Source: Micromonospora rhizosphaerae
GTDB lineage: Bacteria; Actinomycetota; Actinomycetes; Mycobacteriales; Micromonosporaceae
NCBI RefSeq assembly: GCF_900091465.1
Contig: NZ_FMHV01000002.1
Coordinates: forward strand, 6,014,001 to 6,078,000
Direction of reading: 5' to 3'
Length of the DNA stretch: 64,000 bases
This document shows positions 1,487 through 5,228 of this stretch, piece by piece. Each line of letters starts with the position of its first letter. Positions within the stretch are counted from its first letter, which is position 1. The position numbers and the translations under genes are program-made. Below the pieces are notes generated by a model, which did no database searches, had not been told where the DNA came from, and was given only the letters and a program-made list of their open reading frames with translations.

Positions 1487-2059
1487 GTGCCCAGAGTAAG
1501 TCAGGATCAGCTCGACGCGCGCCGCCAGGAGATCCTCGCCGCCGCGCGGGCCTGTTTCGCCCGGTACGGCTACGAGGGCGCGACCGTACGCCGCCTGGAG
1601 GAGGCCACCGGGCTGTCCCGTGGCGCAATCTTCCACCACTTCCGGGACAAGGACTCGCTCTTCCTGGCCGTGGCCGAGGACGACGCCGCCGCCATGGTGG
1701 AGACGGTGGCCCGCAACGGCCTGGTCCAGGTCATGCAGGATCTGCTCGCCCGGGCGGCCTCCCCGGACACCACCGGCTGGCTCGGCAGCCAGCTCGAGGT
1801 CTCCCGGCGGCTGCGCACCGACCCCGCCTTCGCCAAGCGCTGGGCGGAGCGCTCCGCCGCTATCGCCGAGGCCACCCGGGAGCGGCTGCTCCGTCAGCGG
1901 GAGGCCGGCGTGCTGCGCGCGGACGTGCCGATCGACGTGCTGGCGCAGTTCCTGGAACTGGCCTACGACGGGCTGGTGCTGCACCTGGCGATGGGCCGCC
2001 CGGCCGGCGACCTCGGGCCGGTGCTCGACCTGGTCGAGGAGGCGGTCCGCCGCCGCTGA
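1487..2059 (+). CDS. TetR-family regulator, AcnR-like
   Basis: A 190-residue TetR-family repressor. The N-terminal helix-turn-helix spans about residues 12-58, with the recognition segment TGLSRGAIFHHFRDKDSLF. The C-terminal half is the ligand/dimer domain. The sequence resembles the AcnR branch of actinobacteria (aconitase repressor; mycobacterial relative Rv1474c), both in the SRGAIFHHF block and in the closing VLDLVEEAVRRR. No aconitase gene is in this window, so its target here could differ. The GTG start was chosen because the homology begins at VPRVSQDQ; the frame is open far upstream but reads antisense through the nitrilase gene. A palindrome lies just upstream. Confidence 0.88.
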   Translation: MPRVSQDQLDARRQEILAAARACFARYGYEGATVRRLEEATGLSRGAIFHHFRDKDSLFLAVAEDDAAAMVETVARNGLVQVMQDLLARAASPDTTGWLGSQLEVSRRLRTDPAFAKRWAERSAAIAEATRERLLRQREAGVLRADVPIDVLAQFLELAYDGLVLHLAMGRPAGDLGPVLDLVEEAVRRR

Positions 2060-2188: not shown

Positions 2189-3106
2189 ATGAAGCTGCTG
2201 GCGGCATCGGGCGACACCTGGGGCATCCCGGGACCCGTCTTCCTCACGACCTACGTCACGGCGGCAGCCGTGATCCTCCTTGCCTGCGTGGTCCACCGGT
2301 ACCTGGTCCTCCGCGGGCGAACCCCGAAGGACCCGATCGACGCCGAGTCGGCGGCCTACCTCAGCGGCGGTGAGCAGCTGGCACTGTGGAGCGCGCTCGC
2401 CGCGATGCGCAGGGCGGGCGTGGTCGGCGTGCGAGCCGGGAGGCGGCTGGAGGCCACCGGCCCGGCGAGCGCCGGGATGACTCCGCTGGCGCAGGCCGTC
2501 CACCGGGCTGCCGCCCGAGGGGCGCGCAGCCGCGACCTGGGCACCGACCCGCGGGTCGCGAATGCGGTGGACGGGCTGCGCCAGAGCCTCGAACGGCGGG
2601 GGCTGATCGTCGGCCAGCGGCAGCGCCGGGCCGCCCGGGCCGGGGTGGTGGCCCTGTCGGTGCTGCTGCTGGTCGGTCTGGTTCGGATCGCGGCGGGGCT
2701 GTCGGCCGGTCGCCCGACGGGATATCTGATCCTCAGCGTGCTGGCACTCGCCGTGGGGCTGATCGTGCTGTGGCCGCTTCCGCGCGACACGCGTGCCGGG
2801 CACACCGTCCTGACGGGACTGCGGCGGAAGCACACGTACCTCTCCCCCGCCGCCCGCCCCGCGTACACCACCTACGGCAGCGCGGAGGCCGCGATGGGGG
2901 TGGCGCTCTTCGGCACCGCGTCGCTCTGGGCGCTTGACGCGGACTTCGCCCAGCAGGCCCAGATCAAGTACCAGGCTGCGGCGAGCAGCGGCTACTCCTC
3001 CGGGTACGGCGGCTCGTCCGGTGGAGGGGGCGGCTGTGGCAGCGGGGCCAGCTCCTGCGGCGGCGGGGGCGGCGGGGGCTGCGGCGGCGGGGGCTGCGGC
3101 GGATGA
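2189..3106 (+). CDS. TIGR04222-type membrane protein with Gly/Cys-rich tail
   Basis: A 305-residue membrane protein. Hydrophobic segments lie at about 17-41, 152-171 and 178-198, and a weaker one at about 231-249. A basic, helical region of about 110 residues lies between the first and second segments. The last 40 residues are almost pure Gly/Ser with four cysteines (Cys283, Cys290, Cys298, Cys303) in GGC-type contexts. This architecture matches the TIGR04222 family, which has no known function. The start has the Shine-Dalgarno CAGGAG eight bases before ATG. The stop codon overlaps the start of the MNIO gene (ATGA), showing tight translational coupling. The cysteine tail is therefore the best candidate substrate for the MNIO enzyme; that is inference. 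Confidence 0.85.
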   Translation: MKLLAASGDTWGIPGPVFLTTYVTAAAVILLACVVHRYLVLRGRTPKDPIDAESAAYLSGGEQLALWSALAAMRRAGVVGVRAGRRLEATGPASAGMTPLAQAVHRAAARGARSRDLGTDPRVANAVDGLRQSLERRGLIVGQRQRRAARAGVVALSVLLLVGLVRIAAGLSAGRPTGYLILSVLALAVGLIVLWPLPRDTRAGHTVLTGLRRKHTYLSPAARPAYTTYGSAEAAMGVALFGTASLWALDADFAQQAQIKYQAAASSGYSSGYGGSSGGGGGCGSGASSCGGGGGGGCGGGGCGG

Positions 3107-3921
3107 CCGGGCCGAGCGGCGTGGGCATCGGCTGGCGGCCGGAGATCGCCGGCTTCGTGGCCGACCTGCCCGGGTTGCGCTTCGTCGAGGTGGTGGCGGA
3201 GACCGTCCCAGCCTCGGGTCCGGTGCCGGACGGCCTGGCCGAGCTGCGCGAGCGGGGCCTCACGGTCGTACCGCACGGGGTGCGGCTCTCCCTCGGCGGC
3301 GCGGAGCCGGTCGAGCCGGCCCGGGTGGCCCACCTGGCCGGGGTGGCCGCACTGGTCGACGCGCCGCTGGTCAGCGAGCACATCGCCTTCGTCCGGGCCG
3401 GCGGGCTGGAGGCCGGGCACCTGCTGCCGCTGCCGCGCAGCCGGGAGGCGGTCGCCGCGGTGGTGGCGAACGTCCGGCGGGCCCAGGCCGAGCTGCCGGT
3501 GCCGGTCGCCCTGGAGCCGATCGCCGCGCTCTTCGACTGGCCGGACGACGAGCTGGACGAGGCCGCCTTCCTGACCGAGATCCTGGACGCCACCGGGGCG
3601 CTGCTGCTGCTCGACATCGCCAACGTGCACGCCAACGCCCGCAACCGGGGCGCCGACCCGCTGGCGCTGCTGGACCGGCTGCCGCTGGAGCGGATCGCCT
3701 ACGTGCACGTGGCGGGCGGGGCCGAGCAGGGCGGCTTCTACCACGACACGCACACCGATCCGGTGCCCGCCGAGGTGCTCGACCTGGTGGGCGAGCTCTG
3801 CGCCCGGCATCGGCCGCCCGCCCTGCTGCTGGAACGGGACGGGCACTACCCACCGGCGCCCGAGCTACGCGCCGAGCTGGACGCGCTCGCCGCCGCGTCC
3901 GGGTTCCCGGTGATCACGTGA
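3103..3921 (+). CDS. MNIO family (DUF692) iron enzyme
   Basis: A 272-residue TIM-barrel protein of the DUF692/MNIO family (multinuclear non-heme iron oxidative enzymes; relatives MbnB, TglH, BufB). Family landmarks are in order: GVGIGWR at 7-13, FVEVVAET at 27-34, VPHGVRLSL with His58, VSEHIAF with His93, HLLPLPRS, Glu138, LLLDIANVHANARN with Asp171 and His176, YVHVAGG with His202, HDTHTDPVP with Asp215 and His217, and LLERDGHYP with Glu244. The metal-binding set thus looks complete. One oddity is LEPI where relatives usually have an ENP-type motif. Known members oxidise cysteines of ribosomal peptides with the help of a partner protein. Here the flanking overlapping genes supply a Cys-rich protein and a possible partner. 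Confidence 0.93.
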   Translation: MTGPSGVGIGWRPEIAGFVADLPGLRFVEVVAETVPASGPVPDGLAELRERGLTVVPHGVRLSLGGAEPVEPARVAHLAGVAALVDAPLVSEHIAFVRAGGLEAGHLLPLPRSREAVAAVVANVRRAQAELPVPVALEPIAALFDWPDDELDEAAFLTEILDATGALLLLDIANVHANARNRGADPLALLDRLPLERIAYVHVAGGAEQGGFYHDTHTDPVPAEVLDLVGELCARHRPPALLLERDGHYPPAPELRAELDALAAASGFPVIT

Positions 3922-4424
3922 CCCGCCCCGAGGGCCGAACCGGTGGGGCGGTCGTACGGCCAGCGCGCGGGATCGACGCGGGCGGGGATCTCGCCGCGCG
4001 GCAGGCGGCGCTGGTCGCGACGCTGGTCGCCGGGGGCCCGCTGCCGGCCGGGTTCGCGCCGGCGCCGGTGGCGACCGCCCGCCGTGCCCTGCTGCGCAAG
4101 CGCGGCGGCGACGTGGCCCGGCACTGGCCGCTGCTGGCCGCCGGCCTCAGCGCCGCCTGGCCGACGACCTTCGCCGACTGGGCGGCGGACCGCCCGACCC
4201 AAGGGTCGCTGCGCGACGGCTGGGACCTGGCGCGGGAGCTGCGCGACCGCGGCACCCTGCCGCCGCTGGGGGCCGAGGAACTGGCCGTCCGGGAGGCGGC
4301 CAGCCGCTACGACGGACGGACGGCGCCCCGCCCGCGCCGGCTGCCTGCGGTCGCGTGGGTCGGCGGCGCCGTCGCGGTGCAGCTCGCCGGTCGGGTACGC
4401 CTGCTGCGCCCCGCCCGCAGCTGA
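3918..4424 (+). CDS. Putative MNIO partner protein (SCO6045-like)
   Basis: A 168-residue cytoplasmic protein starting at GTG within the stop region of the MNIO gene (GTGA overlap). The core at about 24-75 contains DLAARQAALVATLVAGGPLP, followed by a block of PAPVATARRALLRKRGGDVARHWPLLA. This resembles the SCO6045-like domain found beside actinobacterial DUF692 genes. A second block, about 80-130, includes WPTTFADWAADRPTQGS and ends in a basic tail. By position it corresponds to the partner proteins (MbnC, TglI, DUF2063 types) that present the substrate to an MNIO enzyme. The role is inferred from position and faint similarity. It could also be a structural subunit. Confidence 0.7.
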   Translation: MTRPEGRTGGAVVRPARGIDAGGDLAARQAALVATLVAGGPLPAGFAPAPVATARRALLRKRGGDVARHWPLLAAGLSAAWPTTFADWAADRPTQGSLRDGWDLARELRDRGTLPPLGAEELAVREAASRYDGRTAPRPRRLPAVAWVGGAVAVQLAGRVRLLRPARS

Positions 4425-4466
4425 GCCGGTTGGCACGGCGTTGCCGGCTGCGGCAGGATCGGCCCC

Positions 4467-5228
4467 ATGGATCTCGGATTGACCGATCGGGTGTACGTGC
4501 TGACCGGCGCCTCCCGTGGCCTCGGCTTCGCCACCGCCGAACAGCTCGTCGCGGACGGCGCGCGGGTGGTGATCTCGGCCCGGGCCCCGGAGCGGGTGGC
4601 CGCGGCGGTAGAGGCGCTCGGCGGCCCGGAGCGGGCGATCGGCCTGACCGCCGACCTGACCGACCCGGAGACGCCGCAGCGGCTGGTCACGGCGGCCCGG
4701 GAGCGGTTCGACCGTGTTGACGGCGCGCTGATCTCGGTGGGCGGACCGCCCCGCGGCACGGCCGCCCAGGTGACCGACGAGCAGTGGCGGGAGTCCTTCG
4801 AGACCGTCTTCCTGGGCAGCGTCCGCGCCGCCCGTACGGTGGCCGCGGCGCTGACCGACGGCGGCGCGATCGGGCTGGTCCTCTCCACGTCGGCCCGCGG
4901 GCCGGTGCCCGGCCTCGGCATCTCCAACGGCCTGCGTCCCGGCCTGGCCGGGGTGGCGAAGGACATGGCCGACGAGTACGGCTCTCGGGGCGTACGCGTG
5001 GTCGGCCTGCTGCCCGGCCGGATCATGACCGACCGCAACCGTGAGCTCATGGCCGCCACCGGAGACGCCGAGCAGGCCCGGGCCGAGGCGGAGGCCGGCA
5101 TCCCGCTGCGCCGGTTCGGCGATCCCGCCGAGTTCGGTCGGGTCGCCGCTTTCCTGCTCTCCCCCGCCGCCAGCTACCTCACCGGCGTCACCGTGCCGGT
5201 CGACGGCGGCGCGCTGCGCGGCCTGTGA
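4467..5228 (+). CDS. SDR family oxidoreductase with altered catalytic site
   Basis: A 253-residue short-chain dehydrogenase/reductase. The nucleotide-binding TGASRGLGFA lies at 13-23, with the later VGLLPGRIMTDR and VPVDGGA motifs also present. The usual Ser-Tyr-Lys triad is not kept: Ser140 is present, but the Tyr and Lys positions (thirteen and seventeen residues on) are Ser153 and Arg157 in ISNGLRPGL. An SN-x-x-R version of this site is a recognised minority type within SDRs, so the protein may bind NAD(P) without classical catalysis or use another acid. It follows the MNIO cassette by 42 bases and overlaps the glycosylase gene by four bases (GTGA). Confidence 0.88.
   Translation: MDLGLTDRVYVLTGASRGLGFATAEQLVADGARVVISARAPERVAAAVEALGGPERAIGLTADLTDPETPQRLVTAARERFDRVDGALISVGGPPRGTAAQVTDEQWRESFETVFLGSVRAARTVAAALTDGGAIGLVLSTSARGPVPGLGISNGLRPGLAGVAKDMADEYGSRGVRVVGLLPGRIMTDRNRELMAATGDAEQARAEAEAGIPLRRFGDPAEFGRVAAFLLSPAASYLTGVTVPVDGGALRGL

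Follow-up and report, generated by a model that had tools for sequence, protein, structure and literature searches.

We found that three overlapping genes of Micromonospora rhizosphaerae form a cassette in which, judging from the sequences, an iron enzyme and its helper probably make a chemical change to a membrane protein at its cysteine-rich tail. The genes, which we call A, B and C (Table 1), lie in the window, that is, the whole stretch of 64,000 nucleotides that was analysed (contig NZ_FMHV01000002.1, positions 6,014,001 to 6,078,000). The cassette is real, conserved and coupled, and it is of a published kind. The explanation that we consider best overall, with a probability of about one half, is that the Gly/Cys tail of gene A would be modified on the cytosolic face of the membrane by gene B together with gene C and would stay tethered there.

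Table 1. Coordinates of the cassette, of the predicted parts of gene A and of the upstream regulator gene (positions in the window).
Feature	Position	Strand	Length or basis
AcnR-type TetR regulator	1487..2059	+	PDB AcnR E 4.5e-57; TetR_N
Gene A: TIGR04222 membrane protein, putative MNIO substrate	2189..3106	+	305 aa
Gene A, predicted transmembrane segment 1 (residues 17-35)	2237..2293	+	hydropathy over 78 aligned rows, window included; model helix 15-42
Gene A, soluble domain (about residues 50-145), possibly GPP34/GOLPH3-like, predicted cytosolic	2336..2623	+	VIA-align, hhalign
Gene A, predicted transmembrane hairpin (residues 153-171 and 179-197)	2645..2779	+	hydropathy of 78 rows; AlphaFold2 model
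Gene A, disordered Gly-rich tail (residues 268-305), putative modification site	2990..3103	+	sequence; pLDDT <50 over most of tail
Gene B: MNIO (DUF692) enzyme	3103..3921	+	272 aa
Gene C: MNIO partner protein (SCO6045-like / PME-type 2)	3918..4424	+	168 aa

The original prediction described three genes that overlap end to end, and we obtained the same coordinates, with overlaps of 4 nt at both junctions (ATGA between A and B, GTGA between B and C). No sigma-70 promoter or terminator consensus was found near the cassette. The original prediction knew of no characterised system of this kind. The idea is already in print, as a computational prediction in which TIGR04222 proteins are putative substrates of MNIOs that have small partners (Antoine et al. 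2025, PMC12452194). That study collected more than 1,000 Cys-containing proteins that lack a signal peptide and are encoded ahead of an MNIO gene, and 40% of these are TIGR04222 proteins. For a subset of the latter it was proposed that the Cys-rich tail is modified. A TIGR04222 protein of Micromonospora purpureochromogenes was modelled there, and so was a PME-type 2 partner of Micromonospora matsumotoense (PMC12452194). A TIGR04222 peptide was also mentioned in a bacteriocin cluster in a 2016 Pseudonocardia genome paper (PMC5183585). We found no mass, metal or phenotype data on such cassettes in the open-licence PMC literature.

The family assignments of genes A and B agreed with those first proposed. 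Gene A matched NCBIfam TIGR04222 with 152.6 bits (cut-off 43). Its tail carries four cysteines among glycines (Cys 283, 290, 298 and 303), and CGG forms its C-terminal end, as it does in 77 of the 78 aligned gene A rows, window included. Gene B matched PF05114 with 259.9 bits (cut-off 25) and is the only MNIO found in its own 7.2-Mb genome. The iron ligands of TglH are His71, His107, Glu151, Asp184, Asn187, His216, Asp229, His231 and Glu258 (PMC10880893). They align with H58, H93, E138, D171, N174, H202, D215, H217 and E244 of gene B (9/9 identical, counted by eye on the alignment), and the nine residues are invariant in all 42 aligned MNIOs linked to such tails. The residue that follows the ligand Glu138 is Pro139 in gene B; in the 42 linked MNIOs this position holds Asn (33), His (5) or Pro (4), and in TglH it holds Asn. 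Among the curated MNIO models gene B scored best with the BufB equivalog, at 177.5 bits against a cut-off of 310, and it obtained 23.4 bits against 325 with the MbnB equivalog (TIGR04159). Because no cut-off of a curated MNIO equivalog was reached, we left the reaction of gene B without assignment; as a guess by analogy, a bufferin-type thiooxazole would be the nearest known product.

Gene C itself had no Pfam or NCBIfam match, DUF2063 included. Its relatives in the databases carry PF26136, and some of them bear the name "SCO6045-like C-terminal domain", which bears out its description as SCO6045-like. Two relatives matched DUF2063 slightly below the curated cut-off (E 6.5e-6 and 7.8e-6). The closest structural matches of the gene C model (pLDDT 85) were TglI and MbnC, with 7-8% identity in the structural alignment, which supports a partner fold for this protein as modelled. 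Gene C agrees with the PME-type 2 partners in position, as it directly follows the MNIO gene and has no DUF2063 match, and in fold, as its model resembles known MNIO partners; NGO1945 (3dee), the yardstick for PME-type 2 in PMC12452194, was absent from the structural matches listed. The gene C domain is fused to the MNIO in 39 of 75 loci. Going by the Pfam-derived name, SCO6045 may be an MNIO-partner protein of S. coelicolor; it is tabulated among the genes controlled by the HbpS-SenS-SenR redox system (PMC4991794).

We analysed the best 80 of 415 relatives of gene B. They come from Micromonospora (including M. matsumotoense), Salinispora, Actinoplanes, Catellatospora, Actinomadura, Pseudonocardia and other genera. 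Among these 80 loci, gene C was present in 80/80 and gene A lay upstream in 71/71 that had upstream sequence; in the remaining nine the contig ends at most 63 bases from the MNIO domain. The co-occurrence of all three genes, proposed as a check of the cassette, was thus observed, and since the A-B-C arrangement is conserved across the best 80 of 415 relatives, it is not a product of chance. A tail with at least three [GSA]C[GS] motifs was found in 68 of the 71 loci. The three exceptions are L186, where the Cys tail lies in another reading frame than the body, L194, with two cysteines, and L216, which has no such tail. A start codon of gene B at the 4-nt overlap is present in 51/71 loci (nearest in-frame start taken).

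We wanted to see how the tail cysteines relate to the enzyme across genomes. For this purpose we surveyed 324 genomes of the actinobacterial class, scoring at most 8 TIGR04222 candidates per genome; 93 had a TIGR04222 match and 80 an MNIO (E <= 1e-8). A tail was called Cys-rich if it held at least three [GSA]C[GS] motifs, a criterion fixed after the tails had been viewed and before the contingency counts, which covered 122 proteins from the 93 class genomes and left out three loci from the wider phylum. An MNIO anywhere in the genome was present in 49 of the 50 genomes with a Cys-rich TIGR04222 tail, as against 18 of the 43 TIGR04222 genomes without one; these counts ignore kinship. In the lone exception, G350 (locus L082), the domain lies within 0.5 kb of a contig end, on the side where the MNIO would follow. 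Further, to control for glycine content, we took the tails whose last 60 residues include 12 or more Gly (80 tails). Cys-rich tails made up 47/47 of those with an MNIO in the locus, 7/16 of those whose genome has its MNIO at another place and 1/17 of those without an MNIO. Another draw, of 296 genomes from the phylum, gave 15 with an over-cut-off TIGR04222 match, and 14 of these have an MNIO (tails not split by Cys). The genome of the window has three TIGR04222 genes and one MNIO, and only the MNIO-linked TIGR04222 protein has tail cysteines.

The dependence that runs from the tail to the enzyme is therefore the pattern expected of a substrate that needs its enzyme. On the domain tree the label changed 11 times, with only 4 independent pairs on well-supported branches, and the test was not significant. 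The dependence is milder in the counts of PMC12452194, which accept any Cys and follow that paper's own definition of neighbourhood or genome; our tail criterion is stricter, and we counted an MNIO anywhere in the genome. According to that study, more than a quarter of TIGR04222 proteins lack a C-proximal Cys and many clusters have no MNIO, as does a sizeable share of the clusters even for Cys-holding TIGR04222 proteins (Fig. 4b of PMC12452194); an MNIO is absent from 490 of 1372 TIGR04222 genomes (PMC12452194). On balance, the present comparisons of sequences strengthen the reading of the tail as an MNIO substrate, which it probably is.

Seven Cys-tailed proteins are encoded away from an MNIO. 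In L007, L011, L032, L041 and L043 the MNIO lies elsewhere in the same genome as the Cys-tailed TIGR04222 gene, which suggests action in trans. In L087 the Cys tail continues into what is left of a partner domain, and no MNIO lies in between; this looks like a decayed operon, and the locus was counted as Cys-tailed.

The MNIO might instead have another substrate, the Cys tail being unmodified and binding metal or forming disulfides, and the linkage reflecting a shared metal or redox response. This is suggested by the 31 of 80 MNIO genomes in which a Cys-rich TIGR04222 tail is absent. We rescanned 23 of these 31 with most or all candidates scored and found no further over-cut-off TIGR04222 protein, only three weak sub-threshold matches (L161, L167 and L168). 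We consider this explanation unlikely, in view of the direction of the dependence (49/50), of the A/B overlap in most of the named genomes among the best 80 of 415, and of an adjacent gene C that resembles an MNIO partner. We inspected 18 MNIO loci that have no Cys-tailed TIGR04222 gene for a substitute substrate and saw none that was convincing. Cys-bearing open frames occur in 10 of the 18 and were judged unlikely by eye, as they have no Gly/Cys tail and overlap other genes. In L117 a short Cys-containing tandem repeat lies in an open frame directly after the MNIO-partner fusion, in the last 150 bases before the contig end.

The original prediction had also named homologues without tail cysteines that keep the enzyme as evidence against itself, and such homologues exist. 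In genus g7 (by inference Streptomyces) we observed a paralogue clade of 20 rows (SH-aLRT 100) in which none is Cys-tailed (0/20) and 18/20 have an MNIO in the locus; single Cys-free homologues were also found in L067 and L216. In L023, L025, L035 and L040 the Cys-free paralogue stands in tandem after a Cys-tailed copy, and for this reason we read the clade as a different protein and not as a substrate that lost its tail. In the other rescanned g7 genomes the Cys-free paralogue was the only over-cut-off TIGR04222 protein with a full domain. The proposed logic of substrate, enzyme and partner fits the comparisons within the subfamily of the window, and overall it is partly supported. An MNIO-partner fusion stands beside the Cys-free TIGR04222 paralogue in L016, L017, L019, L020, L024, L027-L031, L034, L036, L042 and L044, and in L028 a membrane- or secreted-looking gene (4072-4911) lies between the two. 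The Cys-tailed g7 proteins of L005, L010, L022, L023, L025, L026, L035, L038 and L040 all have a WCA motif close to where the tail begins; the tail in the window has no WCA.

We also analysed on which side of the membrane the tail would lie. The TIGR04222 tail, including that of a Micromonospora protein, was placed in the periplasm in PMC12452194. In the 78 aligned rows, the mean number of Lys and Arg per protein was 0.08 before transmembrane segment 1, 3.15 after it and 4.67 after segment 3; the positive charges are thus placed after segment 1, before segment 2 and after segment 3. Among 57 diverse Cys-tailed proteins, 34 have exactly three hydrophobic segments, and 33 of these 34 favour an N-out/C-in orientation. 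The soluble domain and the tail of gene A may therefore both lie on the cytosolic face. This analysis, which relies on sequence and model, disputes the published side of the membrane.

If the tail lay outside, it would be modified before or during insertion and would act extracytoplasmically like a bufferin. Apart from the published topology prediction, this is favoured by the moderate hydrophobicity of a fourth stretch of gene A, residues 231-249 (mean 1.38 over 78 rows), and 12 of the 57 Cys-tailed proteins have four hydrophobic segments. We nevertheless find an outside tail improbable, about as much so as another substrate. Besides the charges and the 33/34 proteins mentioned above, this fourth stretch is split into short helices in the AlphaFold2 model (pLDDT 82.6), its insertion was unfavourable in 78/78 rows (by an insertion scale that also misses segment 2 in 56/78), and it holds at least two charged residues in 44/83 family members. 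Finally, the soluble domain resembles GPP34, which in GOLPH3 is not extracytoplasmic. VIA-align matched this domain to GOLPH3/Vps74, and the local hhalign probability against GPP34 was 90.6, compared with 0.2-0.9 for six controls. The Pfam cut-off of GPP34 (PF05719) was not reached: gene A had no match, and 1 of 22 diverse relatives matched at E 0.025.

A role of gene A as membrane anchor or second partner of the MNIO, in place of substrate, appears very improbable: PMC10880893 mentions a DUF692 enzyme that has a transmembrane partner, but gene C already has a partner-like fold, and 7 of the 13 nearly constant positions in 22 diverse relatives fall within the tail, which carries little weight as all 22 were picked for their Cys tail.

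Our computations gave the family of each of the three genes, the iron ligands of gene B, a partner-like fold for gene C, the fusion of MNIO and partner, and the link of tail Cys to the MNIO. In the preferred reading, modification of a cytosolic tail, gene A would be a membrane protein of three segments, its soluble domain and its disordered Gly/Cys tail both facing the cytosol. Gene C would recruit the tail to the MNIO in the cytosol, and the MNIO would oxidise at least one tail cysteine. The product would remain attached to the membrane on its inner side and would not be released or exported like bufferins. The modified tail might plausibly be metal-binding or redox-active, its role with metals being a guess.

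The gene of an AcnR relative lies 129 bases upstream of the cassette on the same strand, and it is a possible candidate regulator. It is 94-96% identical in two same-genus loci, conserved far beyond gene A, and an AcnR-type relative is present in the stretches of 51 of the 80 named loci (best 80 of 415). A gene of the aconitase family, one of two in the genome, lies approximately 13 kb before the AcnR relative. The neighbouring SDR and UDG genes were read as synteny, as close copies (77-87%) were found only in two same-genus loci among those then compared. As a tentative extension, there could be an actinobacterial class of integral-membrane MNIO substrates that are never released. In it, a GPP34/GOLPH3-like cytosolic platform would show the tail to a cytosolic MNIO-partner pair, often fused, and the resulting tethered metal or redox tail would perhaps be linked through AcnR to iron and citrate; we regard this as rather doubtful.

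MNIO enzymes are known for the modification of small peptides, and this picture would, if the reading is true, be widened by a protein substrate that is anchored in the membrane. The side on which the tail lies decides whether it could buffer metals inside the cell or act outside it. As Cys-rich tails depend on an MNIO, likely substrates can be picked by a simple rule from the many TIGR04222 proteins.

Among known systems, the TIGR04222-MNIO-PME-type 2 clusters of PMC12452194 share with the cassette the families, a TIGR04222 gene before the MNIO gene, the phylum and examples from Micromonospora. They differ in the published periplasmic tail, which here would be cytosolic, and the genome count in the parts of that paper considered here is not split by tail Cys, whereas ours gave 49/50 against 18/43. 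The soluble domain of gene A is similar to GPP34/GOLPH3 (PF05719) in remote profile and fold; GOLPH3 is a peripheral membrane protein (PMC7425898), whereas gene A is predicted to be integral. DUF2207_C (PF20990) was matched weakly by gene A (14.4 bits, E 0.031, under the 33-bit cut-off) and by 9 of 22 diverse relatives (best E 0.012), and it is annotated in databases in two close relatives (P0212 and P0268). Bufferins (BufA/BufB/BufC) are similar in that gene B is nearest to BufB among the curated models, the target contains Cys and a partner protein is present. Their precursors have Sec signal peptides and their PME-type 1 partners contain DUF2063 (PMC12452194), whereas gene A is predicted to be multi-pass and gene C has no DUF2063 match of its own. 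TglH/TglI and MbnB/MbnC resemble the cassette in the nine TglH ligands and in the structural alignment of gene C to TglI and MbnC. Their substrates are soluble peptides, whereas gene A is a membrane protein, and the identity of gene C to their partners is low.
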